Source: Bryobacterales bacterium
Lineage (GTDB): Bacteria > Acidobacteriota > Terriglobia > Bryobacterales > UBA6623
DNA: 64,000 nucleotides
Direction: 5' to 3'
Assembly (NCBI GenBank): GCA_022826925.1
Contig: JAJDTX010000094.1
Span: forward strand, 1 to 64,000
Below the pieces are notes generated by a model. The model had not been told where the DNA came from, did no database searches, and was given only the letters and a program-made list of their open reading frames with translations. The translations under genes and the position numbers were made by a program. Of the stretch, positions 12,039 through 57,832 are shown piece by piece (the first letter of the stretch is position 1; the number at the start of each line of letters is the position of its first letter).

Positions 12039-12923
12039 ATGTTGCAACGCTACTACCGTTCCAATCTGCCGATCCATCTGGGATTGACACTGGCCCTAGT
12101 CGCCTTGCTGGGCCTGTCCTGCTCGGGCGAACCAGCGGGTCCGCGCCAAGGTACCCCAGAGTGGCTCGTGCAAGCCGCCGTGGACAATCTCGCCATAGGC
12201 GATTACCCGAAGACCGTGGAGCAGCTCAGCGAGGCAGCCGGGGCGCCGGGCGAAGCCGGCACCAAGGCCACGCTGTGGCTGGCAGCGATGCGGGCAGGCT
12301 TGGCCTACGGCTACGACGAGCTGTCGGACGCCTTCGCCGCCGGCATGGAAGCGAATGACGCCGTGATCGAGGACTTCCAGCCGTTGGTCAGCGAATATCG
12401 TCGGCGCACCAAGGTGCATGCGATCGACTTCGCGGAAGACGTTGGCGACCTGGACAAGCTGATTGGCGAGCAACAGGCGGTTATGTTCGACTTCCCGCTG
12501 CCGGAGGGCAATGCGTCGGTCTCGCCGATGGTGGCGAGCGTCGAGGGTGGCAACAAGGTCGACGCCCGCCGAGGCGCTATGGAGAGCCAGACTCTGACGC
12601 GCGGGATCTTCCTGGCAGTCGCGGGCCTGACGGGCAAGGACGTGGCCGATCTCGGCCCGGGGGACTCCGGCGGGATCGAGGCCGGCGCTGACCGGGTTCG
12701 CTTCGGCATCGCCAGAACCCTGCTGGACATCGCGATCATGTTTGACCGCGAGAACATCAACGAACCCAAAGTGCGCGAGTTCGTGGTCGAATTGGCCGAC
12801 AAGTGGGCCGAGCCCTACCGTGAGAACGAGGAGCTTGCCGAGCTGATGGAAGATTTCGAGTTCGACCTCGAGAACGAGCGCCGGGACATGTCCGGCAAGC
12901 GCAAGATCAAGAAGACCGACTAG
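12039..12923 (+). CDS. Exported protein, probable lipoprotein, unknown
   Basis: The N-terminus is a signal peptide with a lipobox-like end (LALVALLGLSC, Cys at about residue 29), which suggests lipidation. After it comes an alpha-helical region (residues about 45-110) that looks like short repeat helices, then an acidic C-terminal half ending in a basic tail. I do not recognise a domain. The start is well supported: AGGAGG at 12025-12030 lies eight bases before the ATG. It stands alone between mobA (divergent) and the sulfatase. Confidence 0.75.
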   Translation: MLQRYYRSNLPIHLGLTLALVALLGLSCSGEPAGPRQGTPEWLVQAAVDNLAIGDYPKTVEQLSEAAGAPGEAGTKATLWLAAMRAGLAYGYDELSDAFAAGMEANDAVIEDFQPLVSEYRRRTKVHAIDFAEDVGDLDKLIGEQQAVMFDFPLPEGNASVSPMVASVEGGNKVDARRGAMESQTLTRGIFLAVAGLTGKDVADLGPGDSGGIEAGADRVRFGIARTLLDIAIMFDRENINEPKVREFVVELADKWAEPYRENEELAELMEDFEFDLENERRDMSGKRKIKKTD

Positions 12924-13040
12924 GCCGGTCTGGACCAGATTCTACTCGCGCGGCCGCATTGGACGGCGGTCGCGCCACAGTTGCTGTGTCAGCAGGTGGC
13001 ATGGCGAGCGCCCGGCGCAGTTTGCCAGAATAGTGCTGTT

Positions 13041-14519
13041 TTGCGCGAACTGACTAGAAACGCACTGTTGCGCTGGGCCGTGCTGGGCCTGTGCACCGTC
13101 GGGGCAGCCTTGGCGAGCGGTCCCAACGTGGTCATAATCCTTGCGGACGACCTCGGCTTCGGAGATGTGGCCTATCTCAATCCGCAGTCGCGGATCCCCA
13201 CGCCCAACCTGGATAGCCTGGCTGGCCAGGGCATGGCATTCGTCGATGCCCACACGCCGTCCGGCGTCTGCACGCCGACTCGCTACGGCTTGGTCACAGG
13301 TCGGTACGCGTGGCGGACGCGGCTGAAGCGGGGCGTATTGAACGGCTACGGCGAGCCCTTGCTGGCGCCGGACCGGGAGACGATCGGCACATTCCTCCAA
13401 GCGAGGGGCTATCGCACGGCTATCGTCGGCAAGTGGCATTTGGGCTTGGGGTTTGCCAAGGATGCGGCCGGCGAGTTCGATTTCAACGGGCCGATCGACG
13501 ATGGCCCGCACACGCACGGCTTCGACGACTCGTTCATCATTCCCGCCTCGCTCGACTTCCCGCCGTATGTCTACATTCGCGACGGCAAGATCACGGGCCT
13601 GCCCTTGGGCAGCCAGCCCGGCCTGAAGTTCCCGCGCTTCATGCGCGCGGGCGAGCTGGCCAAGGACCTGGACCCGGTCGGCGTGCTGGATCGGCTGGTG
13701 AAGGAGTCGGCAGACTTCATCCGGCGCCAGGTCGGTCAAGAGCGCAAGTTTCTGCTGTACGTGCCGCTGACGGCGCCCCACAAGCCCGTCTGGCCGGGCA
13801 AGCGGTTCGTCGGCAAGACCGATCTCGGCCCGTACGGAGACTTCATCGTGCACGTCGATGCTGCGCTCGGCGGCATCGTCAAGGCGATTGACGACGCCGG
13901 AATCGGCGACGAGACGCTCGTGATCTTCACGTCCGACAACGGCTCGTTCATGTACCGCTTGGATGGCATCTCGGAAGAGGACCACACCGATGACGAGACC
14001 ATCCAGGCCTTCCGGTCGCTCAACCACACGTCCAACTACGTCTTTCGCGGCACCAAGGCGGATATTTGGGAAGCCGGCCACCGTGTGCCCTTTTTCGTGC
14101 GCTGGCCTGGCACAGTCGATCCGGGCTCGATCCAAGCTCGCACCGTATGTGTCACGGACGTCTTCGCGACCGTGGCTGAAATCGTTGGCGCGGAGTTGCC
14201 CGAAGATGTCGCAGAAGACAGCTTCAGCCTGCTGCCGCTGTTGCAAGGCAAGGAATGGGCCGAGCCCCGAGCGCCCGTGATCCACCACTCCGGCGGCGGC
14301 ATGTTCGCGATCCGCGACGGCCGCTGGAAGCTGGTGGCCGGGAACGGGTCGGGGGGCAGGGAAAAGCCGGCGGGCAAGCCGTTCGAGCGTCCCTACCAGC
14401 TGTTCGACCTCGAGATCGATCCCTCGGAGAAGCGCAACGTCTTCGACGAGCACCCGATCGTAGCGACGCGCCTGGAACAGGCGCTGGAGAGGATCCGGGC
14501 TCGCGGGCGCAGCCGCTAG
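13041..14519 (+). CDS. Exported formylglycine-dependent sulfatase (type I)
   Basis: The enzyme hydrolyses sulfate esters and is presumably periplasmic or secreted. The sequence begins with a signal peptide (NALLRWAVLGLCTVGAALA), then the metal-binding VVIILADDLGFGD and the formylglycine motif CTPTRYGLVTGR, whose Cys must be oxidised to formylglycine. The second metal site appears as FTSDNGS and the family Lys/His as GKWHLG. A TTG start at 13041 puts the signal peptide at the N-terminus; reading further upstream adds 20 unlikely residues. An anaerobic or FGE-type maturase is not encoded in this window. The substrate is likely a sulfated glycan or steroid, by family only. Confidence 0.92.
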   Translation: MRELTRNALLRWAVLGLCTVGAALASGPNVVIILADDLGFGDVAYLNPQSRIPTPNLDSLAGQGMAFVDAHTPSGVCTPTRYGLVTGRYAWRTRLKRGVLNGYGEPLLAPDRETIGTFLQARGYRTAIVGKWHLGLGFAKDAAGEFDFNGPIDDGPHTHGFDDSFIIPASLDFPPYVYIRDGKITGLPLGSQPGLKFPRFMRAGELAKDLDPVGVLDRLVKESADFIRRQVGQERKFLLYVPLTAPHKPVWPGKRFVGKTDLGPYGDFIVHVDAALGGIVKAIDDAGIGDETLVIFTSDNGSFMYRLDGISEEDHTDDETIQAFRSLNHTSNYVFRGTKADIWEAGHRVPFFVRWPGTVDPGSIQARTVCVTDVFATVAEIVGAELPEDVAEDSFSLLPLLQGKEWAEPRAPVIHHSGGGMFAIRDGRWKLVAGNGSGGREKPAGKPFERPYQLFDLEIDPSEKRNVFDEHPIVATRLEQALERIRARGRSR

Positions 14520-14549: not shown

Positions 14550-15941
14550 TCAGTCGAGGATCTTGCCCGGGTTCAGTATCCCGTCCGGGTCTAGCGCGGT
14601 CTTGATCGCCCGCATCACATCGACTCCCGCCCCGTGCTGCGCCTTCAGCGCGCGCTGCTTGCCGATTCCGACGCCGTGTTCACCCGTGCAGGTGCCGCCA
14701 ACTGCCAGCGCCCGTTCGGTCATGCGGTCGTTCACGCGGCTGGCGCGCTCGAACTCCTCCTTGTCGCTGGGATCGATCAGGTAGACGGCGTGGAAATTCC
14801 CGTCGCCGACGTGTCCCAGCATCGGTGCGACCAGTCCCGCTTGCTCGATGTCCTCCCTCGCCGCTGCAATGCACTCGGCCAGTTTGGAGAGCGGTACGCA
14901 AACGTCGCTGACCCATCCGTACGATCCCGGACGGAGGGCCTTGATGGCGTAGTAGGCGTGGTGGCGGGCGTTCCAGAGCTTTTCCCGCTTCTCCCGTTCC
15001 AGGGTCCATTGGAAATCGCCGCCTCCGTGGTCGGCGGCGATCTCGCCCGCCAGCTCGGCCTGCTCGGCGACGCTGGCCGCGGTGCCGTGGAACTCGAAGA
15101 ACATCGTGGGGGTCGGCGCGTAGTGCAGGTTCGCGTAGTCGTTCACCGCCCGCATCGAAGCGACGTCCAACAGCTCGCAGCGGGCGACAGGCAGTCCGGA
15201 CTGGAGGATCTCGATGACCGAGTTCGCACACTGCTCGATGGTCTCGAAGCTGCAGACGGCCGCTGACACGCATTCGGGGAGCGGGTGCAGCCTCAGTTGC
15301 ACCTCGGTGATGATGCCGAGGGTGCCCTCCGAGCCGAGCAGGAGCTTGGTCAGGTCGTAGCCTGCAGACGACTTGCGGGCGCGCCCCCCGGTCCGCAGCA
15401 CGCGCCCATCGGCAAGCACGCAGGTCAGGCCGAGGATGTTCTCGCGGATGGTGCCGTATCTGACGGTGGTCGTACCGGATGCGCCGGTGGCAGCCATGCC
15501 GCCCAGCGAGGCGTCGGCCCCCGGGTCTATGGGCAGCCACAAGCCGTGCTTCTCCAGCCGGTCGTTGAGGGCAAGCCTCCGGATGCCGGCCTGGACGCGG
15601 CAGTCGAGGTCGTCCTCCTGTAGGTCGAGGACGGCATCCATGCGCGCCAGGTCTAGGGAGATTCCCCCGCTGATCGCTTGGACATGGCCCTCCACGGCTG
15701 TGCCCGCACCGAATGGGATGATCGGCAATCCGTGCTCGGCACAGATTCTGACGATCGCGGAGACCTCTTCGTTGGACTCCGGAAAGGCCACCGCGTCCGG
15801 CGCTGCCGGGGGATGGAACGACTCGTCGTGGGAGTGGCTCTCGATGTCGTATGAAGAGGTCGAGCAGCGGGAGCCGAGCAGCGCCGCGATTCTTTCGTGC
15901 GCCGCGCCTTGTCGATTGCTGTTTGCTGGCACGTTAGGCAC
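14550..15941 (-). CDS. FAD-linked D-2-hydroxyacid (lactate/glycolate) dehydrogenase
   Basis: The enzyme oxidises a D-2-hydroxyacid, passing electrons to a cytochrome or quinone. The FAD-binding PCMH domain has VAFPESNEEVSAIVRIC, the pyrophosphate loop PFGAGTAVEGHVQAI and ASLGGMAATGASGTTTVRYG. The C-terminal substrate domain ends with GTCTGEHGVGIGKQ and LDPDGILNPGKILD, which match the D-lactate dehydrogenase (LDHD/GlcD) group. GTG codons at 15941 and 15932 both give a family-like length of about 460; a longer frame reaching 16232 runs into the regulatory region and is rejected. GlcE and GlcF subunits are absent, so D-lactate is the more likely substrate. Confidence 0.92.
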   Translation of the reverse strand: MPNVPANSNRQGAAHERIAALLGSRCSTSSYDIESHSHDESFHPPAAPDAVAFPESNEEVSAIVRICAEHGLPIIPFGAGTAVEGHVQAISGGISLDLARMDAVLDLQEDDLDCRVQAGIRRLALNDRLEKHGLWLPIDPGADASLGGMAATGASGTTTVRYGTIRENILGLTCVLADGRVLRTGGRARKSSAGYDLTKLLLGSEGTLGIITEVQLRLHPLPECVSAAVCSFETIEQCANSVIEILQSGLPVARCELLDVASMRAVNDYANLHYAPTPTMFFEFHGTAASVAEQAELAGEIAADHGGGDFQWTLEREKREKLWNARHHAYYAIKALRPGSYGWVSDVCVPLSKLAECIAAAREDIEQAGLVAPMLGHVGDGNFHAVYLIDPSDKEEFERASRVNDRMTERALAVGGTCTGEHGVGIGKQRALKAQHGAGVDVMRAIKTALDPDGILNPGKILD

Positions 15942-16176: not shown

Positions 16177-16373
16177 GTCTTGAAGTCGATCTGCACGGAT
16201 GCGGATTTCTTCCCACAGCTAGGATCTTTCATGAATTTCGGATCATCAACTCATGTCTCCCTGCTTGGCGGGATACTTGCAAGTCAAGAGATATGCATCC
16301 AAGTTGCAAACCAACTGCGATCTGTACGCGCGCCCCTTCCCCGGCCCGTTTCCTGACAAGTTGGAGAAACGCT

Positions 16374-16640
16374 ATGCCCTGCAAACCTGCCCTGCTAGCC
16401 CGTTACGAGGGATTCGGCTCTGTCACCCGTTGCGGCCACGGGTTCGTTCACGTTCAGGTGGGTCTGACCACGCTGACATTAACCGAGGCCCAGTACCAGC
16501 GCTTCGTAGCTCTGCTGACCGACAGCGCCGCGAATTTCGAGAGAGAGCGCCTGGCTGAGACGGACTTGGGCCCCGAAGCGTATGATCGCCAGGCAAGCGA
16601 GAGCGGTGATGCAGAGTACCCAGACATTCTTCCGAACTGA
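16374..16640 (+). CDS. Small Cys/His-containing protein of unknown function
   Basis: This 88-residue protein has a compact core (EGFGSVTRCGHGFVHVQVG, then TLTLTEAQYQRFVALL). The CGHG stretch could bind a metal, while the rest looks like two short strands and a helix. The C-terminal 30 residues are acidic. I recall similar small proteins in several phyla, but I cannot name a function. A GGAGA lies about seven bases before the ATG. Its 3' end overlaps the propeller gene by 32 bases, so the two are likely translated together. Confidence 0.65.
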   Translation: MPCKPALLARYEGFGSVTRCGHGFVHVQVGLTTLTLTEAQYQRFVALLTDSAANFERERLAETDLGPEAYDRQASESGDAEYPDILPN

Positions 16641-17910
16641 CTCCCGCCGGTCCGCGAGTGCCTTGGCCGCGACCGGCCGCCGATCCCACCGAGGTCTTGC
16701 TCGCCGCTCGTTTCTTGCTGCCGTCGCCGCGCAGGGCGTAGCCTGGGCTGCCCCGTGGTCAGAGTTCCTAGGCAACGGTTCGCTGTCACGCGCCGACGGC
16801 GATTCGATCCCGAGCGAGTGGTCGGACACGCGCAACGTCTTCTGGCGATCCGCGATGCCTGCCTATGGCCAGTCGAGCCCCGTGGTGTCGAGTGGCAAGG
16901 CATTCGCGACCGGCGTTGAAGGGTCGAACAAGGAAACCTTGCTCGTCACCGCGTTCGACCTGCAGTCCGGCCAGGCGGTCTGGACTCACCGGTCGCCATC
17001 CAGCCAGCGGATCGAGGTTTCCGACATGGTCAGCAAGGGCGCGCCGACGCCTGCCGCCGATGGCCTGGCCGTCTATGCCTTCTTCGAGACCGGGAACCTG
17101 CTGGCAATCGACCATGACGGAAACCGGATCTGGGAGCGCAGCCTGACCGAAGAGTTCGGAGAATTCGGCGGCCGCCATGGGATCGGCAGTTCGCTCCGCC
17201 TTTGCCGGGCCGGGGTTCTGGCGCTCGTCGCGCACGACAGGCCCTCCTATCTGGTCTGCGTCGACCGTAGGGACGGACGGACGGTTTGGAAGACGGACCG
17301 CCCGGAGGGGGTGTCGTGGAGCACCCCCACCGTCATCACCCACGCCGGTCGGGAGATCGCCTTGGTGAGTGCCGGGGATTCCGTCGAGGCCTATGACACG
17401 GAGGACGGATCCCCGCTTTGGACGCTGGACGGCTTGCAGGGCGCATTCATCGCTTCTCCGACCCCAGTAGGCGGCGGGGCAATTGTCGGATCCAGCAGCA
17501 AGGGGCACAACGTCGCGATCAGGTTCGGCTCCACGGCCAGCGAGGTTCCAACCGTGGCATGGCGCGCCGCGGAGGCCTCGTCATACTTCAGTTCCCCGCT
17601 CGCCCATCGGGGCAGGGTCTACATGGTCAACAAGGCCGGCGTGGCCTTCTGCCTGCGCGAGGATACCGGCGAGGGGGTCTGGCATTCCCGGCTCGGCGGC
17701 CAGTGCTGGGCGTCTTCCATCGGTTGCGGCGAGCGAGTCTACTTCTTCGGCGTCGACGGATTGACGGAAGTCGTGTCCGCAGGCGACAAGTACGCGCGTG
17801 TTTCGGAGAACCGACTGTCCGTCGAAGGCCGCCTCTACGGAGCTGCGATCATCGAAGAAGGCCTTCTGCTCCGGTATGGCCGCGATCTCGTTCGGATCGG
17901 CCTTGCTTGA
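16609..17910 (+). CDS. Exported PQQ-like beta-propeller protein
   Basis: The protein consists of repeated PQQ-like blades, seen as recurring DLQSGQAVWTH, DRRDGRTVWKTD, DTEDGSPLWTLDG and REDTGEGVWHS units (residues about 75-430). These are typical of WD40/PQQ-fold quinoproteins and BamB-like scaffolds. An RR segment (RRSFLAAVAAQGVAWA) suggests Tat or Sec export. Catalytic quinoprotein features such as the vicinal disulfide Cys-Cys are absent, so a scaffold or binding role is more likely than a dehydrogenase. The ATG at 16609 is used; it lies within the end of the upstream small gene. Confidence 0.82.
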   Translation: MQSTQTFFRTDSRRSASALAATGRRSHRGLARRSFLAAVAAQGVAWAAPWSEFLGNGSLSRADGDSIPSEWSDTRNVFWRSAMPAYGQSSPVVSSGKAFATGVEGSNKETLLVTAFDLQSGQAVWTHRSPSSQRIEVSDMVSKGAPTPAADGLAVYAFFETGNLLAIDHDGNRIWERSLTEEFGEFGGRHGIGSSLRLCRAGVLALVAHDRPSYLVCVDRRDGRTVWKTDRPEGVSWSTPTVITHAGREIALVSAGDSVEAYDTEDGSPLWTLDGLQGAFIASPTPVGGGAIVGSSSKGHNVAIRFGSTASEVPTVAWRAAEASSYFSSPLAHRGRVYMVNKAGVAFCLREDTGEGVWHSRLGGQCWASSIGCGERVYFFGVDGLTEVVSAGDKYARVSENRLSVEGRLYGAAIIEEGLLLRYGRDLVRIGLA

Positions 17911-18041
17911 GAGCCCGAACGGCTTGCTGGCAGCGGGACGCGCCCGACCGGTGCTGGTCACGCAACCATCATTCCCGCCACTGACGAGCCCGAAGGCTTC
18001 GGCTCGAAGCGGGACCGACCTGGCAAGGCCCGCACCGCAGG

Positions 18042-18860
18042 CTAGCCGAATCGATAGACGACGATATTGTGCGCCGGCAGTCGATGCCGAGACTCGACGT
18101 GGCAACCGCTGCGCTCGACATGATCGGAGAGTTCCCGAAGCGTCATGAGTTCGCGGTAGCCGAGGTTCAACTCCTCGGAGAAGGCGCGATAGAAAAGACG
18201 GACCGCCAGCCGGTCTCTCGGACACGCGGAGACTTGCACCCCTTGCGGCCTCAGAAAGCTACGGAACAGCGAGATCAGCGATTGCTTGCCAGGATCGTCG
18301 TAGTGCTCGATCAGGCCCCAGTCGATGCCGACATCGAAGGATCCCGGCGCCTCCATCCGGAAGAAATCCTGTCGGGCGTACTCCATCCGCGCCGGGTCGC
18401 GAATGACGTCAATCCATTGCCGCTTGCTTCCTCGAGGGGCTCGTACGCGGGCTGTCTGGGGCGACTGAGTGAAGCGCTGGTATGCCACGGGATCGCTGTC
18501 GATGAGCAATACCCTGCCTTTGTCGCCGTACAGCGCCTGCAGCAGCGCCGCTTCCCAGCCAGCCTCGGCTCCGAAATGGACGATGCTCGGATTCGGGGGC
18601 AAGCTCAGGCGGGAGAACACTTTAAGTTTGCCCTCCAAGTCTAGGATCGCGTTGCGCCGCTGTTGCAGGAAGGAGAGGTACAGCCGCATCAGGCGCCACC
18701 CGAGCGAACAGTCGGCATGCCTGTTGACCTCCCGCCAGTCCGTGCCGAGCAGCCGCTCGAAATTGGCATTGAAGCGTGACCAGTTCACCGCGCCCGTTGA
18801 CTCGGCATCGGGCACGCTCGCCGGGTCGAACTGACGCGACAGGGGGCCCGTGAGGCGCAT
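18042..18860 (-). CDS. SAM-dependent methyltransferase-like protein
   Basis: A Rossmann-type fold is suggested by SIVHFGAEAGWEAALLQAL (motif I position, where the usual GxGxG is degenerate), VLLIDSDPVAYQRF (motif II acid) and SFDVGIDWGLIEHYDDPGKQ (post-motif with the common IEH). The first 95 residues form a helical cap. The substrate is unknown. Its start at 18860 lies 31 bases from the divergent HAD phosphatase gene, so the two may share a control region. It faces away from the lipid-like operon at 19.6-23.3 kb, so membership in that system is only possible. Confidence 0.75.
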   Translation of the reverse strand: MRLTGPLSRQFDPASVPDAESTGAVNWSRFNANFERLLGTDWREVNRHADCSLGWRLMRLYLSFLQQRRNAILDLEGKLKVFSRLSLPPNPSIVHFGAEAGWEAALLQALYGDKGRVLLIDSDPVAYQRFTQSPQTARVRAPRGSKRQWIDVIRDPARMEYARQDFFRMEAPGSFDVGIDWGLIEHYDDPGKQSLISLFRSFLRPQGVQVSACPRDRLAVRLFYRAFSEELNLGYRELMTLRELSDHVERSGCHVESRHRLPAHNIVVYRFG

Positions 18861-18891
18861 AGCGGTACAGTAACACCGAGGCCTTCCCCGC

Positions 18892-19548
18892 ATGCGCTCC
18901 GAGGAATTCGACGCCGGAGCGGTGCGGGCGGTCAGCTGGGACGTCGACGGCACTCTCTACTCCACTAGCCGCCTGACGGCTCGATTCTGGCTGGCAGTCC
19001 TGTCGGCTTCGCTAGGCGGAAATGCGAGTGCCGCGTGGAGAGCGGCGGCGGCGATGCGCAGGTTTCGCAAGCGCATGGAACAGGTCCGTGCCGACGGCGG
19101 GCGCCTCGAGACCGACGATGCCAGCATCGAGGAGCGCGTGGCCCTGGAGCAGGCTTGGCTGTCGCCTGAAATCGCGGCGCTGGGAGCCCGCCCGGGGGTC
19201 CCAGCAGCCCTGCGCGCTTTCAGGGCGCGATTTGAATCGCAAGTCGTTCTGTCGGACTTCGAGCCCGCGCACAAGCTCGCCAGCCTCGGTCTGCTGGACT
19301 GCTTCGACGCGATCTTCTGCGGCGAGCGGCTCGGCTATCTCAAGCCGAGCCCCGAGCCGTTCAGGCGCGTCCTTCGCGATCTGGACCTGCAGCCCGAGAG
19401 CCTATTGCACATCGGAGACCGTCCGGAAACCGACGGAGCCGGAGCGGCAGCGGCTGGGTGCAGGGTCCTCGTTCTGGGACAGGACTTCCACTCCTTCGCT
19501 GGACTGGAGTCGATGCTGGCTCCAAGGGTGGTCGGAACAAAGCAGTGA
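18892..19548 (+). CDS. HAD-superfamily phosphatase
   Basis: All four HAD motifs are visible: the nucleophile pair Asp17/Asp19 (SWDVDGTLY), the Ser of motif II (VVLSDFEP), the Lys of motif III (GYLKPSPEPF) and the acidic motif IV (HIGDRPETDGAGA). An alpha-helical C1 cap lies between motifs I and II, as in phosphoglycolate phosphatase and haloacid dehalogenase relatives. The substrate is unknown. It converges on the GH3-like gene with 32 bases between stops, and diverges from the methyltransferase. A phosphatase role in the same small-molecule pathway is possible but not shown. Confidence 0.88.
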   Translation: MRSEEFDAGAVRAVSWDVDGTLYSTSRLTARFWLAVLSASLGGNASAAWRAAAAMRRFRKRMEQVRADGGRLETDDASIEERVALEQAWLSPEIAALGARPGVPAALRAFRARFESQVVLSDFEPAHKLASLGLLDCFDAIFCGERLGYLKPSPEPFRRVLRDLDLQPESLLHIGDRPETDGAGAAAAGCRVLVLGQDFHSFAGLESMLAPRVVGTKQ

Positions 19549-19580
19549 GAGTGCTCTCGCCAGCCGCGAGAATTGCCGTC

Positions 19581-21182
19581 CTAGGCACGGCGCCGAGCGC
19601 TTGGCTGACGGTTCAGCGCAGATCGGTCTCCCTCGGACGACTCCCACAATCGGGGGTAGAGCGGCAAGAACTTGAATTGGGAGTCCAGTCCTACCCCGCT
19701 TCCTCGGGGCAGGCGTTCCCGGAGCCCGTGCAATCCGACCCTCTCGAGCCGCACCGCTCCTAGCCGTCCGCTCGACCGCTTGGCACGATACTCGCTGTTC
19801 ACGTCGCGGAGCAATTCGTCGAACCGCTCCGCCAACCCCTCCATAGGGCCGGGATCCTTCTGGCCGGGGTAGACAACGACAAGGCGGTAGTGCGGCAGTC
19901 CATCGACCGGCTGCAGCGAGGGAAAGCAGGTCAGCGCGTGGTGGTCAGTAAGGTCGGGAAACGACCGCCGGAGGCACTCGTACGCCAGTAGTGCCTGGGT
20001 CTCGGTCAGCTTTTCCCCCGTGAAGGAGTACCCGAGGCCCCGGCGGCGGAGAAACCGGAGGTCGGGCAAGTCGCTGACGAACCGGTTGACCCTGAATAGG
20101 TCGCCGGTGCAATAGCGCCGCAGGCCGTGCGCGTTGCTGACGACGAGTTCGTAGACGCAACCGACAGAGAGCTCGTTGGCGGCCAGGAGCCGGTCCGGGA
20201 CCCGGGGAGCACCGGCCTCGAGGAACTCGCAGCAGACGCCGGGGGCTATCGGCAGGAACGCTGGATCGCCGAGCCGGAAGTCGGGGATCGTCTCGATCGT
20301 CTCCGTCGACATAGAGTACATCGGTACGCGGCGGAAGCGAGAGGCAGGCAGGTGCAGCTCCAGCCGGTCGAGAAACGGCGCGAGATATCCGCCGGTCCAG
20401 CAGACGTACACGCGCATCGCCGGAGCCCATTCCTCGATTGGCAGGAATGTCGAGCTTTCCGCGATCCTCTTCAGACGCTGCGCGTAACCGTGGGAGGCGA
20501 TGCGGCGGGTTGCGGCGGCCAGCGACGGATCCATCTTGTCCGGGGTTCGGACGCAATCCCGCACCAAGGCGCTGCACCGCGTCCAGTCGTCTTCCACAGT
20601 GTCGAAGAAGATTGACATCGTGGACGGGTTGGTGCTGTAAAGCACTCCCGGATTGGAAACCGCCAAGACCCACAGCCGGACGGCCTCCAGACCGTAGGCA
20701 TCGTGCAACGGCCGCAGGGGCTCCCAGCAATGCATCCGGTACGGGGCCTGCAGCGTCGCAAGGTAGGACGGCCTGCCCGCCTCGCTGAGCAACAGACTGC
20801 TCAGCGAGCCGTCAGGCTGGACGGGACCGAACACGTACATGCTTGTGCGGCGAACTCCCAGCATCCGGAATGCCCGCATGAACGAATCGACAAACACCCA
20901 GCGCACTGCGGCGATCCGTCGCCGGCTATAGGCGAGCAGCTTTGGGCCGCCCCTCGTTCCCGAAGTGCTTGCGATTCGCCGTGGATCGATTGCCGGGTCG
21001 ACCGGCGGCACTTCTGTCGTCAATTCCGTTTCGGGGACGATCCCGAACCGGCGTCGCAGCCTCGACCACAGCAGCCGGTGGTGTCGCGCTCGCAGACGGT
21101 GCAGGATCTCCGCCAGCGCACCCGCCGCTCGCAGGACGACGCCGATCAAGCAGCGCAATGCGTCGTTGTATGCGGCGCGCAT
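19581..21182 (-). CDS. GH3-family acyl-adenylating enzyme (acyl acid amido synthetase-like)
   Basis: Enzymes of this family adenylate a carboxylic acid and pass the acyl group to an amine, as in plant JAR1 and GH3 proteins. ATP motif 1 is STSGTRGGPKLLAYS (residues about 72-86), motif 2 is YSMSTETIE and motif 3 is RRYCTGDLFRVN. The 533-residue length fits the full family fold. The ATG at 21182 overlaps the TGA of the acyltransferase gene by one base (TGATG), so translation is coupled. It is third in a desaturase, acyltransferase, adenylase operon. This suggests activation of an unsaturated fatty acid or similar acyl chain; the acceptor amine is unknown. Confidence 0.82.
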   Translation of the reverse strand: MRAAYNDALRCLIGVVLRAAGALAEILHRLRARHHRLLWSRLRRRFGIVPETELTTEVPPVDPAIDPRRIASTSGTRGGPKLLAYSRRRIAAVRWVFVDSFMRAFRMLGVRRTSMYVFGPVQPDGSLSSLLLSEAGRPSYLATLQAPYRMHCWEPLRPLHDAYGLEAVRLWVLAVSNPGVLYSTNPSTMSIFFDTVEDDWTRCSALVRDCVRTPDKMDPSLAAATRRIASHGYAQRLKRIAESSTFLPIEEWAPAMRVYVCWTGGYLAPFLDRLELHLPASRFRRVPMYSMSTETIETIPDFRLGDPAFLPIAPGVCCEFLEAGAPRVPDRLLAANELSVGCVYELVVSNAHGLRRYCTGDLFRVNRFVSDLPDLRFLRRRGLGYSFTGEKLTETQALLAYECLRRSFPDLTDHHALTCFPSLQPVDGLPHYRLVVVYPGQKDPGPMEGLAERFDELLRDVNSEYRAKRSSGRLGAVRLERVGLHGLRERLPRGSGVGLDSQFKFLPLYPRLWESSEGDRSALNRQPSARRRA

Positions 21183-22411
21183 CAGAGCCCTCGCGATGCT
21201 GCTCGGACGGTGCTTAGGTAGCGGTCCCGAATGACTGCAACATCTTCCGGCCAGAGCAGGGCCGGGTCGTACGTGATCGTCATCCAGGTCTGATCGCCCA
21301 GCGACACCGCCGCGAAGATCAAGGCGTGGCGCCGGTGCATCGCGCCCAGCACGCCAAGCTCCTGCAACCCGGCGAAGACTGGATCGTCCTGCCCGGGCCA
21401 CTTTTGAACGTGGCTGAACGCAGCAGAGCCCATATCGGCCCAGGGGCGGTTCAAGTACGCACGGGCGAGCGAGGCGCTGAATCGCACTGGAATCCCGGTC
21501 AGCAGCGTTCGCTGGGGCACGACCCATTCGCCACGCTCCCGGGCGAGGTTGACCTGCGATCGAACGGCGCGGCACATATCCGAGAGATCCAGCCCGTCGG
21601 CATAGTCCCGGCGAACCCGAATGCGGCTCGAGGCGTTGCCGAACCCCTCGAATGCATCTCGACGAATGTTGACCGGCAGCCAGATGCCTACCCTCCGGCC
21701 GTTGTCGCCTTGGATTCGGTTCCACTCTTGGAGCGTCTCCAGCGCGGCGACTACCAGGACATCGTTAAACGTGAACCCAGATTCCGCTAAGGAGATTCCC
21801 GCGAGCTCGCCGTGCGGAAAAGAGCATGTAGTCCAGCGTCTCTCGCTGGATGCCTGCCCGGGACGGGTCCACAGAGGGGCGCAACGATCCCATACCGGGT
21901 TCCGCTTCGCGCCGGGCGGGGCTTCCGCAAGCGCAGGCGGCACCACTGCAGCCGGCTCCGAACAGGGCCGGTCCAGATCCGAGGCGACCCGCAGCTGGTG
22001 TCGAATCCATGCCAGGACGCTGAGCATGTCCGCCACGCAATGGTGGACCTTTGTGACGAGACAGCCCGTACCGGCGTCCACGCCGCCGACCCATGCTTGG
22101 AGCAGCGGTGGTCCGCTCGCGAGGTCGAACGGCGTCCGAAGGAACCGCTCGACGAGCCCATTGCTTTCTCCCTGCCGAAGCGAGCGAAACGCCGGTTCGA
22201 GGCAATCTGGCTCCAGCGGAGACCAGCGGCCGTCAACCACCTTGCATCCCGTCGCCGAATAGAGATTTCGCGCGCTGCGCGCTCCGCGTGCGAGATCGTT
22301 CGCATCGATCTCCCGATCGAAACGAAGCAACACTGCGAAGTCGAGCGGCCGGACCTCGCTGTCCATGACCAAGCTGACGAGGTCAAGCGTGCTGAGAGCG
22401 GGATTGGGCAT
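21182..22411 (-). CDS. HHxxxD acyltransferase (condensation / WS-DGAT-like)
   Basis: The catalytic motif HHCVAD (His123, His124, Asp128) sits in KVHHCVADMLSVLAWI. It is the signature of the CoA- or carrier-dependent acyltransferase superfamily that includes NRPS condensation domains and wax ester synthase/DGAT. A second family-like block reads WLPVNIRRDAFEGFGN. At 409 residues it is a single stand-alone two-lobe enzyme. It joins an acyl group to an alcohol or amine acceptor that cannot be deduced here. Its start overlaps the desaturase gene by 29 bases, and its stop overlaps the GH3-like gene by one base, so the three are expressed as a unit. Confidence 0.8.
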   Translation of the reverse strand: MPNPALSTLDLVSLVMDSEVRPLDFAVLLRFDREIDANDLARGARSARNLYSATGCKVVDGRWSPLEPDCLEPAFRSLRQGESNGLVERFLRTPFDLASGPPLLQAWVGGVDAGTGCLVTKVHHCVADMLSVLAWIRHQLRVASDLDRPCSEPAAVVPPALAEAPPGAKRNPVWDRCAPLWTRPGQASSERRWTTCSFPHGELAGISLAESGFTFNDVLVVAALETLQEWNRIQGDNGRRVGIWLPVNIRRDAFEGFGNASSRIRVRRDYADGLDLSDMCRAVRSQVNLARERGEWVVPQRTLLTGIPVRFSASLARAYLNRPWADMGSAAFSHVQKWPGQDDPVFAGLQELGVLGAMHRRHALIFAAVSLGDQTWMTITYDPALLWPEDVAVIRDRYLSTVRAASRGL

Positions 22412-23270
22412 CGGGGACCGCTGACGCTCGGTCCTTCCGGATGTCGCGCCTGGGAATCAGCGCGCTGGCCCCAGAAGGTGCCGACTCGACGAACGGAAGC
22501 AGCTCGATCCAACCAAGGTGTGGGCGCATGTGATGTGTTCTGTGCATCGACAGGCCGAACGAGAACCAGTACATCAGCCGGCCGTAGTAGTTGTGCGAGC
22601 GCGATTCCGGGCTTCCGGTCGAGAAGCCTTCGTGCGTCTTGAACGCGAACGGGTACCACAGCAGCAACGAAACGATCACCAGCAGGGGAAGCATGCCGGA
22701 AACCAGCCTTGCCGGGCCCACCACGAGAAGGATGGGGAGATAGACCAGTGCGATGCCCAGGTAGTTCAGGAGCAATTCGCGTACGTGAGAGCCATCGACG
22801 TTCTCCCGATTGCGCAACCAGAGGAGCCAGTGGTGAGGCATCGCCACCGCCCTCAGCGGAAGTTCCCATTCACGGTCCGCGGCTGGCTTGACGAAATGGT
22901 CCGGGTCCCGGCTCTGCTCGTTCGTGAATCGGTGGTGCAGGAGATGGGTCTTGCGGAAGTTGGTGAACGGCACCATGCAAGGAACCAGCGCGAGACGCCC
23001 CCACCAGAGATTGGCAGCGCGTGTCGGGCCCATCAATCCGTGCACAGCCTCGTGGGCCATCACTGTGCCCACAAACGCCAGGTAGGAGCGGACGAGCACG
23101 TCGGCCACGTAAGCCCAGCCATTAGACGGCGCGAGGAACAGTCCGCCCAGGCTTGCGCCAACGACTGCGCACACCACGCACCTGCTGAGCAGGTGAAGAT
23201 TAGGGCGCTTCCACAACTCCCGGCGCGGTCTGGAGGATTCTGGGACTTCTATTGCCGATTCTGTAGCCAT
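22383..23270 (-). CDS. Membrane fatty-acid desaturase (di-iron)
   Basis: This is an integral membrane di-iron oxygenase that introduces double bonds (or hydroxyls) into acyl chains. The three His boxes are HEAVH (residues 73-77), HLLHH (109-113) and HRTHH (243-247), between membrane segments at about 30-70, 85-105 and 165-210. The 295-residue length is normal for the FA desaturase / beta-carotene hydroxylase-like group. It is the first gene of the operon with the HHxxxD acyltransferase and GH3-like enzyme. Divergent from it, after 376 bases, is an OxyR-type regulator, which would make sense for an oxygen-dependent enzyme. Confidence 0.88.
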   Translation of the reverse strand: MATESAIEVPESSRPRRELWKRPNLHLLSRCVVCAVVGASLGGLFLAPSNGWAYVADVLVRSYLAFVGTVMAHEAVHGLMGPTRAANLWWGRLALVPCMVPFTNFRKTHLLHHRFTNEQSRDPDHFVKPAADREWELPLRAVAMPHHWLLWLRNRENVDGSHVRELLLNYLGIALVYLPILLVVGPARLVSGMLPLLVIVSLLLWYPFAFKTHEGFSTGSPESRSHNYYGRLMYWFSFGLSMHRTHHMRPHLGWIELLPFVESAPSGASALIPRRDIRKDRASAVPDAQSRSQHA

Positions 23271-23646
23271 TCTGATCGCGCTAGGGGCTGGGTCGAAATT
23301 CCTACGCGTGTCTCGAATTACAGTGAATGCCCTTCCGGCCCGTGCAGGGCGATGGCCCCGGGATGACGCTACCCCAGTGCCGGACCGGCGTGGCCTCAGT
23401 ATAGGGGACGGATTTCCTCCATCAGGTTCCGGTGTGCTGGGTGAGTCCGGGGCTTCGTCGCGCTCTCGAGCGGACGCCCTGATTCTTGATTAGCTTCTGA
23501 TCCGGTTCTTCAGAAATGTGCTGAAGGAGGAATCGAGGCAATTCCGCGAGTCTGTCAGCAGCGGGCGAGGGCCGAACACTCTATTAGGTGCCCGCGCTGT
23601 GCGAGCCCAGTGTTTCTGTTCCTGTGATAGCCTAGCGCCGTCAGCA
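23271..23646. other. Divergent control region between desaturase operon and oxyR-like gene
   Basis: No gene is supported here. The only palindrome of note is TTCTGA at 23495-23500 with TCAGAA at 23510-23515. A LysR-type regulator often binds such a shared region and controls both sides. No clear OxyR box (spaced ATAG and CTAT) was found by eye. Confidence 0.4.
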
Positions 23647-24579
23647 ATGAAAAAGCACGACTTCTCACTCCGACAGCTTCAGTACGTCGTGGCCGTAGCG
23701 GACACGAAGAGCTTTCGCCAGGCGGCCCAGCGCTGCGACGTGTCCCAGACTTCCCTGAGTGCGCAGGTTGCGAAGGTTGAAGCCGCACTGAGAGTGCAGT
23801 TGTTCGAGCGTCATCGTCGAAGCGTGTTGATCACTGAAGGAGGATCTGAGCTGATCGAATGCATGCGGAACGTTCTGGTTGACGCGGACGATGTCAGCAT
23901 TGCCGCACAGCGCTTGTTGGAACCTCTAGCGGGTACGCTGCGAATCGGCGTAATTCCCACCATCGGACCCTACCTCCTCCCCACCGTAGCTGCGAAGCTG
24001 CGCCAGGAGCTTCCGCTATTGACACTAGCTTGGCTGGAGGAGAAGACCGAGACACTTGTTCGCCAGATTCGTCATGGAAGCCTCGACGGTGCGTTTCTCG
24101 CTTTGGAATCGGACATCGGGGACGTCAGCTACGAGACCATTACGCAGGATCCGTTCGTGCTTGCAGTGCCGCCGTGTCACCGCCTTGGAGACTCGTCAAC
24201 GCCCATACCCCTGAGCTCCCTACAGGGCGAAAGCCTCCTTCTGCTTGACGAAGGGCACTGCTTGCGCGATCAGGTGATCGAGTTCTGTAGCGGAGTTGAC
24301 GTTGATGAACTTGGCTTTCGGTCGACGAGTTTGCCGACGCTGGTGCAGATGGCGTCCGCCAACATGGGTATCACCTTGCTGCCACTTATCGCGGTGCCTG
24401 CCGAGACACATCGGTCTGACCTCGTGACGCGTCCAATAGAGCCACCGACGCCACACCGGACCATCATCCTCGCTTGGCGGCAGCAATCGGCTCTCGCAGT
24501 GGCGATGCGGGAGATCTCCCAGACCGCGCGGCTTGCGGTCCAGAACCGTCCCGCAACGGACCATCCCGCGGTGTCCTGA
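23647..24579 (+). CDS. oxyR: OxyR-type LysR transcriptional regulator
   Basis: The N-terminal winged helix-turn-helix is LysR-like (LRQLQYVVAVADTKSFRQAA, residues 8-27). The C-terminal sensor carries the peroxide-sensing pair Cys205 and Cys214 in EGHCLRDQVIEFC, the same spacing of nine as Cys199/Cys208 of E. coli OxyR, with the downstream LQMASANMGITLLPLIAVP-like block typical of OxyR. The protein has 310 residues. The ATG at 23647 is chosen because the HTH starts at once. No catalase or peroxiredoxin is adjacent; the divergent neighbour is the desaturase operon, a plausible regulatory target. Confidence 0.88.
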   Translation: MKKHDFSLRQLQYVVAVADTKSFRQAAQRCDVSQTSLSAQVAKVEAALRVQLFERHRRSVLITEGGSELIECMRNVLVDADDVSIAAQRLLEPLAGTLRIGVIPTIGPYLLPTVAAKLRQELPLLTLAWLEEKTETLVRQIRHGSLDGAFLALESDIGDVSYETITQDPFVLAVPPCHRLGDSSTPIPLSSLQGESLLLLDEGHCLRDQVIEFCSGVDVDELGFRSTSLPTLVQMASANMGITLLPLIAVPAETHRSDLVTRPIEPPTPHRTIILAWRQQSALAVAMREISQTARLAVQNRPATDHPAVS

Positions 24580-24782
24580 CGACCGGCCGCGCGTTCTGGA
24601 CAAGGCACCAAGGCCGTCGAGCATCAGATACGGGGCGCTGCCGAGATCCTGACTCCTCGGCAGTCGGACACCCCGAATCGCTGCGTGCGATCCAGGCCAT
24701 GGGCGACAGACTGAATCGCCGAAACGCCTCGCGAGGGCTGGTAGCGGACCCGACTCTGACCTGAGCTAAGATAGCGGCCCGC

Positions 24783-25568
24783 ATGGACTACGCACGAATG
24801 TTCTCGCTTCAGGGGCGCACCGCGCTAATCGCTGGCGCTAGCCGGGGCATTGGACTGGCGATCGCCAAGGCCGCCGCCGCACAGGGTGCGAACACGGTGC
24901 TGGCCGCGCGCTCGACAGGCGTATTGGAGGGCCAAGCCCAAGCCCTGTGCGACGCCGGCCTGTCTGCTGAGGCCGTCCGGCTCGACGTTACAGATACCGA
25001 GTCTATCGAGTCGGTTGCGGCCGCCTGCGGTGAGGTGGACATCTTGGTCAATGTTGCCGGCACAAACATCCGCAAGCGCTTTCAGGACTACTCTCCAGAG
25101 GAGTACGAGCGGATCATGCAGACGAATCTGCACGGCATCGTGCATCTCACCAAGGTGGTCGGTGCGCGGATGGTCGAGCGCGGGCGCGGCGGCAAGATCG
25201 TGCACATCGGCAGTCTCATGTCCGTGTTGGGACTTCCGTACCTGTCCGTCTACGCGATGACCAAGAGCGCCCTGGCCGGCCTGACGCGTGTGTTGGCCGC
25301 AGAATGGGCGCACGCCGACATCCAGGTCAATTGCATCGCGCCGGGCTTCATCCTCACCGATCTCAATCGCGACATGTGGCAGCCCGAGCACATGAAGGGG
25401 TGGCTCGCGGGAGTGCAGCCGAATCCCCGCCTTGGCACGCCGGACGATATCGCGGGACTGGCTGTCTTTCTGGCCAGCCCGGCCAGCGACTACATCACGG
25501 GACAAGTGATTGCCTCCGATGGCGGCTACACGACCACAGCGAAGTGGCCGTTCGAGCCCAGCCTCTGA
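24783..25568 (+). CDS. Short-chain dehydrogenase/reductase
   Basis: This is a classical SDR with cofactor motif GASRGIGLAIA (residues about 18-28), NVAG, catalytic Ser in HIGSLMS, and YxxxK as YAMTK, followed by IAPGFILTDLN. The C-terminal LASPASDYITGQVIASDGGY is typical of gluconate 5-dehydrogenase and other sugar-acid SDRs. No basic or acidic residue clearly fixes NADP over NAD, though an Arg after the second strand (AARS) suggests NADP. It is not overlapped by a neighbour. A TAAGAT box lies ten bases before the ATG. Confidence 0.92.
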   Translation: MDYARMFSLQGRTALIAGASRGIGLAIAKAAAAQGANTVLAARSTGVLEGQAQALCDAGLSAEAVRLDVTDTESIESVAAACGEVDILVNVAGTNIRKRFQDYSPEEYERIMQTNLHGIVHLTKVVGARMVERGRGGKIVHIGSLMSVLGLPYLSVYAMTKSALAGLTRVLAAEWAHADIQVNCIAPGFILTDLNRDMWQPEHMKGWLAGVQPNPRLGTPDDIAGLAVFLASPASDYITGQVIASDGGYTTTAKWPFEPSL

Positions 25569-56944: not shown

Positions 56945-57832
56945 ATGGATTGCCCGATCTCCAGAGCCGTGGTTCCGGTCGCTGGCCTCGGCACGCGGCT
57001 GCTGCCAGCGACCAAGTCTCAGCCAAAGGAGATGCTGCCGGTCGCGCGCAAGCCGATCGTCCAGTACGTCGTCGAGGAGCTGGCGCGCAACGGCGTGCGC
57101 AACCTGCTGTTCGTGACGGGCCGCGGCAAGGCCGCGATCGAGAATCACTTCGATTCTGACCCAGCACTGATGGAATCGCTGCGCAACGCGGGCAAGGATG
57201 ACCTGCTACTGGCGCTCGATTTCGAACAGCTCGGCCTGAACATCCTCTACACGCGCCAGAGCGTGCAGCGTGGCCTGGGAGACGCGATCCTGCACGGGGA
57301 ATCGTTCGCGGGCAAAGAGCCGTTCATCGTGGCGCTGGGTGATTCGATCATCGGGCTGCGTGGGGATTCCATGGCCTGCCAGCGCATGGCGGACGCATTC
57401 GTCCGCGAGGATGCGGACGTGGTCATCGCGGTGGAAGAGGTCGAGCCAGCGCACGTTCGCTTCTACGGAATCGTAGAGCCGCAAGGCGAGGGGGACGTGT
57501 TTCGGATCCGGACGATGGTCGAAAAGCCAGCGCCGGACGCGGCTCCCAGCCGCTTGGCAGTGTCCGGGCGCTACGTATTCGGTCCTGGGATCTTCGACAG
57601 GATCCGGCAGGTCAAGCCGGACAAGCGGGGCGAAATCCAGATCACGGACGCCATCCGTGCCATCGCTGAGGGAGGCGGCAAGGTCATGGGCGTAAAGCTC
57701 CAGCCCGAAGAGAAGCGGTACGACATCGGCAACATGCCCAGTTACTTCGAGACATTTCTCGAATTCGCATTGGCCGATCCTGACCACGGCGAGCGAGTCC
57801 GCACCTACCTGAGGCGGATCCTCGCCGAGTGA
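56945..57832 (+). CDS. galU: UTP-glucose-1-phosphate uridylyltransferase
   Basis: GalU makes UDP-glucose for envelope polysaccharides. Signature VVPVAGLGTRLLPATKSQPKEMLPV lies at the start (shown in two family pieces), with VQYVVEELARNGV, GLGDAILHGESFAG, FIVALGDSII, and later YGIVEPQGEGDVFRI, VEKPAPDAAPS and EIQITDAI. The 295-residue form from the ATG at 56945 fits; a GTG at 56933 adds four. The next gene starts within its stop codon (GTGA). Confidence 0.95.
   Translation: MDCPISRAVVPVAGLGTRLLPATKSQPKEMLPVARKPIVQYVVEELARNGVRNLLFVTGRGKAAIENHFDSDPALMESLRNAGKDDLLLALDFEQLGLNILYTRQSVQRGLGDAILHGESFAGKEPFIVALGDSIIGLRGDSMACQRMADAFVREDADVVIAVEEVEPAHVRFYGIVEPQGEGDVFRIRTMVEKPAPDAAPSRLAVSGRYVFGPGIFDRIRQVKPDKRGEIQITDAIRAIAEGGGKVMGVKLQPEEKRYDIGNMPSYFETFLEFALADPDHGERVRTYLRRILAE

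Follow-up and report, generated by a model that had tools for sequence, protein, structure and literature searches.

A window of 64,000 nucleotides, positions 1 to 64,000 of contig JAJDTX010000094.1 from an uncultured Bryobacterales bacterium of the Acidobacteriota (GenBank assembly GCA_022826925.1), carries a sparse, horizontally mobile set of five genes. The products are a di-iron oxygenase/desaturase (DES), an acyltransferase, a GH3-type adenylating enzyme, a HAD hydrolase and a putative methyltransferase. Our best reading, drawn by analogy, is that this cassette encodes an undescribed pathway to an aminolipid-like acyl conjugate; both amide formation and the nature of the product are what we infer from that analogy. 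We put at roughly one half the probability that the five genes serve a single lipid-type product and are a functional analogue, built from other protein families, of the OlsH-OlsG-OlsI system of Singulisphaera acidiphila. The cassette genes are as follows.

22383..23270, minus strand: DES, a membrane di-iron oxygenase/desaturase of the FA_desaturase superfamily (295 residues)
21182..22411, minus strand: acyltransferase of the condensation / WS-DGAT fold (409 residues)
19581..21182, minus strand: GH3-type acyl-adenylating enzyme (533 residues)
18892..19548, plus strand: HAD hydrolase, cassette member (PF00702, 75.8 bits)
18042..18860, minus strand: putative S-adenosylmethionine-dependent methyltransferase, cassette member in the window's lineage (Methyltransf_25, 20.2 bits against a cut-off of 27)

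The original prediction described three overlapping minus-strand genes joined to a divergent regulator. The coordinates are correct, as are the overlaps of 29 nucleotides between DES and acyltransferase and of 1 nucleotide (TGATG) between acyltransferase and GH3, and the HAD and methyltransferase genes are present near GH3 as it had noted. A pattern-based scan with GH3 of 84,980 species genomes gave 27 loci, which with one more (L074) make 28; the scan relies on short peptide patterns and so picks up the closer relatives first. Several Acidobacteriota loci (L023, L025, L026, L027, L029, L032 and L040) are near relatives, so that loci cannot be counted as independent; the handles L031 and L075 refer to one contig, and the genes of L034 and L042 were read from open reading frames (ORFs). 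Among the 22 loci with at least 1.5 kilobases (kb) upstream of GH3, 20 have the acyltransferase and DES genes directly upstream in the same order, counting L016, in which DES is cut by the contig end. Five loci lie at contig edges (L022, L031, L033, L038 and L039), of which L031 retains part of the acyltransferase gene. By the locus labels, the full trio is found in Acidobacteriota, Myxococcota and Bdellovibrionota, so that the co-occurrence across phyla proposed as a check was indeed observed. The junction between acyltransferase and GH3 is readable in 21 loci and is an overlap of 1 to 8 nucleotides in 20 of them (1 in TGATG; 4 in ATGA, GTGA or TTGA; 8 in L037), with a gap of 3 nucleotides in L041; this recurrence agrees with the coupled translation suggested earlier. 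Start codons are predicted ones in all loci, TTG being assumed for GH3 in seven. Pairwise identities of the three proteins co-vary across 15 sequences (Spearman 0.915, 0.919 and 0.846, with 0 of 2000 permutations as high for each). Part of this correlation is due to shared host descent. Given the same gene order in three phyla and the co-varying identities, the association of the trio is more than chance.

The extent of the unit is indicated by two further loci from the window's genus, L020 (genome G007) and L021 (genome G003). Both share with the window the DES, acyltransferase, GH3, HAD and methyltransferase genes, with order and orientation unchanged. Of the remaining window genes called from about 9 to 36 kb, none has a counterpart in L020 and a single one has a counterpart in L021, a sulfatase match of 28% identity. 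Since only those five genes recur at the other sites, the true unit is five genes rather than three plus a regulator. The surroundings differ between the two loci: purine-synthesis-type genes lie near L020, and L021 has sulfatase and ADP-ribosyl-glycohydrolase genes nearby. In L020, a gene for a neutral/alkaline ceramidase-like protein (12186-13676, minus strand) is found roughly 1 kb past the cassette. Genomes G003 and G007 also contain a window-like neighbourhood, on contigs other than those with the cassette. In the window, this neighbourhood includes two syntenic anchors and one additional gene between them.

24783..25568, plus strand: SDR-like gene, right-hand syntenic anchor, which we take to be of the SDR family from its sequence rather than from a domain scan
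14550..15941, minus strand: FAD-linked oxidase, left-hand syntenic anchor (ORF open to 16232)
16855..17910, plus strand: PQQ-type beta-propeller protein, between the anchors, not conserved with the cassette

The anchors are about 8.8 kb apart in the window and about 0.1 to 0.45 kb apart (by matched ends) in G003, G006, G007 and G008; no GH3 match at E<=0.001 was found in G006 or G008. As the anchors are nearly adjacent in these four congeners, the stretch between them was either gained in the window's lineage or lost at this site in the four congeners. The beta-propeller gene had no match at the corresponding place in L016 and L018. Inspection for marks of integration found no tRNA genes in the window or in L017, L020, L021, L024 and L037, and around the inserted stretch only two-copy repeat pairs of 70-89% identity or complementarity. 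There was no foreign base composition, the GC content being 0.640 in 16233-24782 versus 0.643 for the rest of the window. Codon scores per residue, from a scoring trained on the window itself, were 0.05-0.14 for genes between the anchors versus 0.19-0.25 for genes next to the anchors.

Carriage of the cassette is patchy. Within the window's genus, GH3 matches occur in 9 of 11 genomes, its own included (with a partial match in G005 and two pieces in G001). Across the phylum the cassette GH3 was found in 2 of 396 genomes, six more having weaker, partial GH3 matches; in the order of L024 it was found in 5 of 119, in the phylum of L037 in 2 of 195 (one with a second, more distant GH3) and in the phylum of L041 in 1 of 240. 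These counts are lower bounds because only part of the candidates was scored (3 per genome in the 396-genome set and at most 6-12 in the others). Three loci labelled Myxococcota (L034, L035 and L038) are absent from the 195-genome matches, and this set either lacks them or is a narrower group. An acyltransferase profile detected this protein in 10 of 14 carrier genomes, all draft assemblies, with no match in G457-G460, whose GH3 locus lacks the gene or ends too early.

The window's GH3 protein is a member of the GH3 family by its domains, its three nucleotide motifs and its fold. Pfam GH3_M (47.4 bits) and GH3_C (25.3 bits) both exceed the cut-off of 23.6, and the N-terminal domain, at 16.5 bits, is below cut-off. 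Across 23 members of the clade, GH3_M, GH3 and GH3_C match at E<=0.01 in 23, 17 and 14, respectively. An AlphaFold2 model from 23 sequences (predicted local distance difference test, pLDDT, 81.6; predicted template-modelling score, pTM, 0.74) has plant GH3 chains as its best 28 Foldseek matches, with moderate TM-scores of 0.40-0.64; the best is 4epl (E 1.2e-19, identity 18%, TM 0.56), and acyl-CoA ligases such as PaaK rank after the GH3 chains. A profile search by sequence retrieved 10 distinct PDB sequences, all of them GH3. The nucleotide motifs were assigned by eye against those in PMC12493201, the 2025 article from which all statements on OlsH are taken.

20940..20966, minus strand: GH3 nucleotide motif I, TSGTRGGPK (residues 73-81)
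20301..20321, minus strand: GH3 nucleotide motif II region, MYSMSTE (residues 288-294)
20100..20126, minus strand: GH3 nucleotide motif III, GLRRYCTGD (residues 353-361)

In all 23 aligned members, T73, S74, G75 and K81 of motif I, the whole of MYSMSTE, and G353, L354, R356, Y357, T359 and D361 of motif III are invariant; G360 varies. The JAR1 counterpart of motif III is GLYRYRLGD, and YSMSTE of motif II appears to be one residue longer than YGSSE of JAR1. By motif position, S74 corresponds to OlsH S115, which is reported to be essential (PMC12493201). The first 45 residues have a net charge of +3 to +9 and an amphipathic stretch in all 22 members scanned, in a scan that took the best stretch per member and is hence biased upward. 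These features are consistent with, though no proof of, work at the membrane. Other GH3 proteins were encountered along the way. The window's own genome has a second GH3 at L076 (G000, contig C49; 5301-6842 and 7294-8856, both minus strand), which shares 25% identity over 151 residues with the cassette GH3 and adjoins an Acyl_transf_3 protein; it is perhaps another GH3-based acyl pathway. Planctomycete genome G460, which holds L039, has an OlsH-like GH3 match on contig C232 (184.5 bits) at a position incompatible with that of the L039 gene. In G463 (L036), too, there is a second and distant GH3; hence several kinds of GH3 may be present in one genome.

The acyltransferase belongs, by its predicted fold, to the condensation / CoA-dependent acyltransferase superfamily. 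The model (pLDDT 83.7, pTM 0.87) finds AzeD first in a Foldseek search, condensation-type domains of nonribosomal peptide synthetases (NRPS) next and the wax synthase AbWSD1 at rank 38. Domain scores for the window protein are below cut-off for both WS_DGAT_cat (18.9 bits, cut-off 23.6) and Condensation (16.6 bits, cut-off 30.6). Its motif lies as follows.

22028..22045, minus strand: HHCVAD, the HHxxxD motif of the acyltransferase (residues 123-128)

The second histidine and the aspartate of this motif are conserved in 16 of 16 members and the first histidine in 15.

DES matches FA_desaturase (PF00487) at 67.6 bits, over the cut-off, and has three histidine boxes, HEAVH (73-77), HLLHH (109-113) and HRTHH (243-247), whose histidines are kept in all 17 members, save that position 243 is masked (X) in L034. 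On these features it is assigned, from sequence, to the FA_desaturase superfamily. A search by sequence for relatives of solved structure found none at E<=0.01. All 17 members match the CrtR profile (E<=0.001), and 11, 7 and 3 match CrtW, DesB and DesA, respectively; with these matches, and with the window member far below cut-off (CrtR NF045688, 37.5 bits of 475; CrtW, 29.1 of 350), both hydroxylation and desaturation are possible. By its NF045688 score, DES falls short of assignment as a CrtR beta-carotene hydroxylase.

The HAD product is a predicted HAD hydrolase on the strength of PF00702 and its motifs (DVDGTLYS, LSD, KPSP and GDRxxxD), the motif residues being conserved among relatives. 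Relatives lie within 200 nucleotides of GH3 in 12 of 28 loci (L016-L022, L024, L037, L038, L041 and L074) and immediately upstream of GH3 in L039. In L037, L038, L041 and L074 the HAD gene is on the GH3 strand, overlapping GH3 in L037, L038 and L074 and following it in L041. The methyltransferase gene is beside the cassette in L016-L022, and a relative of 48-49% identity is beside GH3 in the Myxococcales locus L035. The window protein falls short of its Pfam cut-off, and the L035 relative passes PF13489 (27.8 of 27 bits). The Myxococcales version shows a further difference in content, with L035 carrying the methyltransferase and L038 the HAD. Next to GH3, L035 also has a complete gene resembling fatty acyl-AMP ligases, whose top NCBIfam match is NF006624 (452.9 bits, cut-off 600), and in L038 a partial AMP-binding gene of fatty acyl-AMP-ligase type, cut by the contig end, lies beyond the HAD. 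In L074 (G086, contig C192, 213-5259) the order DES-GH3-HAD is followed by FA_hydroxylase and two proteins without a Pfam match. The variant genes of L035, L038 and L074 are all compatible with acyl-chain chemistry.

The regulator that had been included in the system does not belong to the cassette.

23647..24579, plus strand: OxyR-like LysR regulator, divergent flanking gene (NF008361, 234 bits, cut-off 329)

E. coli OxyR has two redox cysteines with a nine-residue spacing. Both cysteines of the predicted OxyR homologue are present (CLRDQVIEFC, nine residues apart), but the NF008361 cut-off is not reached. The start is most likely the ATG at 23647, 23518 being the first GTG of a longer ORF; with this ATG, the gap of 376 bases to the operon (23271-23646) is as predicted. 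Of the 19 trio loci in which 1.2 kb or more of sequence precedes DES, only three (L017-L019), all sharing the window's whole flank, have an OxyR-like gene beside the cassette, and the cassettes of L020 and L021, which sit at other sites, have none beside them; as a cassette member the regulator was therefore rejected. The four-box OxyR consensus has 0 matches in the window at up to 3 mismatches. The protein may still regulate the window's copy. A TATACT at 23398-23403 (minus strand) is conserved, along with the bases around it, in each of the four OxyR/DES intergenic regions that were compared, those of L017-L019 being more than 200 nucleotides longer than the window's, and may be the -10 box of a cassette promoter.

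How these proteins might act together can be set out as a scheme. DES would hydroxylate or desaturate an acyl chain, its presumed substrate. GH3 would adenylate a free carboxylate with ATP and join it to an amine, presumably as an amide rather than an ester; the acceptor would most likely be an amino acid or amino alcohol. Acting through its HHxxxD site, the acyltransferase would attach a second acyl group, probably to a hydroxyl in ester linkage. The HAD protein may remove phosphate from an intermediate or the acceptor, and the methyltransferase may cap the head group. We infer both this order of steps and a membrane location. An aminolipid-like acyl conjugate is favoured because the cassette covers the three functions of OlsH-OlsG-OlsI with proteins of other families and adds an oxygenase and a HAD. 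A fuller version is possible, although we hold it more tentatively and at less than even odds: a horizontally shared pathway to a new class of aminolipid, an oxygenated, doubly acylated and methylated acyl amide, made by a GH3 of a new clade together with an O-acyltransferase of condensation fold and a phosphatase of the HAD type, a second version in Myxococcales being fed by a fatty acyl-AMP ligase.

Several observations weigh against an aminolipid-like product. The substrates named above are putative. Among the DES profile matches, those to carotenoid hydroxylases/ketolases outnumber those to fatty acid desaturases, and the DES substrate may hence not be an acyl chain. The HAD gene is 2.7-2.9 kb downstream of GH3 in four loci (L027, L029, L032 and L040) and in 11 of 28 no HAD gene was seen close to GH3, several of those contigs ending nearby; the methyltransferase adjoins the cassette in only 8 of 28. 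L035 and L042 are without DES and acyltransferase nearby, and L074, with 1.0 kb upstream, has DES and then GH3 with no acyltransferase between, which suggests that not every part of the cassette is always needed. The cassette GH3 scores 16 bits against the OlsH profile NF052613 (cut-off 620). A tree likewise places its clade (23 rows, support 98/99) apart from eight OlsH-like rows, which are fragments of 220-298 residues from 8 of 12 loci (four being below thresholds), none reaching the NF052613 cut-off; in the tree, two rows sit on very long branches and eight forks are shown as open. By this score and its separate clade the cassette GH3 was rejected as an OlsH. For comparison, none of 149 planctomycete genomes reaches that cut-off, the best scoring 427 bits.

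The cassette could alternatively be one for a specialised metabolite, GH3 and the condensation-fold enzyme making a small soluble amide or ester such as a signal, a surfactant or an antibiotic-like N-acyl compound. We give this a real though clearly smaller chance. Its sparse spread (strong GH3-clade matches in 2/396, 2/195, 1/240 and 5/119 genomes), the congener sites without it, the proximity of the acyltransferase model to AzeD and NRPS condensation-type domains, and the fatty acyl-AMP-ligase-like gene of the Myxococcales variant would all be expected of such a cassette. Set against these are two partial checks: the annotated flanking genes include no carrier-protein, polyketide synthase or NRPS gene, and when the window and loci were scanned for phosphopantetheine motifs, the one hit, at window position 57811, was far from the cassette. 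It is also possible, but unlikely, that GH3 forms esters, or acts as a ligase for CoA or a carrier, and feeds activated acyl groups to the acyltransferase without forming an amide. The coupled translation of the two genes would suit this arrangement, as would the appearance of acyl-CoA ligases such as PaaK in the fold search; however, these come after the GH3 structures that make up all of the best 28 matches, and L074, L035 and L042 carry GH3 without that acyltransferase adjoining. Tailoring of a carotenoid or terpenoid, in which a CrtR-like DES hydroxylates, the acyltransferase esterifies and GH3 conjugates a carboxylated end, is more doubtful again: every DES matches CrtR, and CrtW, DesB and DesA matches follow in falling number, but the window DES is far below the carotenoid cut-offs, no carotenoid gene is among the annotated flanking genes, and the gene employed by the Myxococcales variant resembles a fatty acyl-AMP ligase. 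Storage of wax esters or triacylglycerol with an accessory activating enzyme, an identity raised for checking with the original prediction, is very improbable and was rejected: the window acyltransferase has TIGR02946 (acyl_WS_DGAT), a profile that 6 of 16 members match, as its sole NCBIfam match, but at 25 bits of 309.95 and with the Pfam scores below cut-off, while 37 chains, mostly NRPS-type, outrank AbWSD1 and no fatty alcohol-forming gene is among the five.

The aminolipid-like conjugate is our preferred product. The cassette is a defined, compact and coupled gene set with intact catalytic residues; hence, its product can be sought directly. If that product is an aminolipid, the cassette would be a further solution to acyl-amide lipid synthesis beside OlsBA, OlsF and OlsHI, and would mark a lipid that differs between close relatives.

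No published description of this gene set was found among the literature matches listed, in keeping with the earlier view that it matches no system that could be named. The accompanying claim that GH3 enzymes are rare in bacteria has to be withdrawn. PMC12493201 reports more than 7500 BLASTp hits for OlsH, almost 90% of them in Bacteroidota, and describes a GH3-dependent bacterial operon for an acyl-amide lipid; this study is the sole biochemical assignment for the numerous bacterial GH3 proteins among the matches listed, and it states that the functions of others need further study. OlsH uses ATP to join free fatty acid and ornithine into N-acyl ornithine, and in S. acidiphila it forms an operon with the N-methyltransferase OlsG and the O-acyltransferase OlsI (PMC12493201). 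As in that operon, the cassette encodes a GH3 enzyme, a probable O-acyltransferase and a putative methyltransferase together, and the GH3 nucleotide motifs are the same; in contrast, the cassette acyltransferase has the condensation/WS-DGAT fold and not that of an alpha/beta-hydrolase, and there is an extra di-iron oxygenase and HAD. With the plant GH3 acyl-acid amido synthetases (JAR1/GH3.11, GH3.5, GH3.6 and GH3.12), the hormone-modifying enzymes for which this type is chiefly known, the cassette GH3 shares fold and nucleotide motifs, although identity is very low and its gene is in a bacterial operon. The acyltransferase has the superfamily fold and HHxxxD motif of wax ester synthase / DGAT and NRPS condensation-type enzymes but is below every curated cut-off tested. 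DES has the PF00487 match and three histidine boxes of the superfamily that includes CrtR, CrtW, DesA and DesB, and is below both the CrtR and CrtW cut-offs. In summary, the cassette would be a distinct variant of the GH3-dependent kind of bacterial acyl-amide lipid operon.

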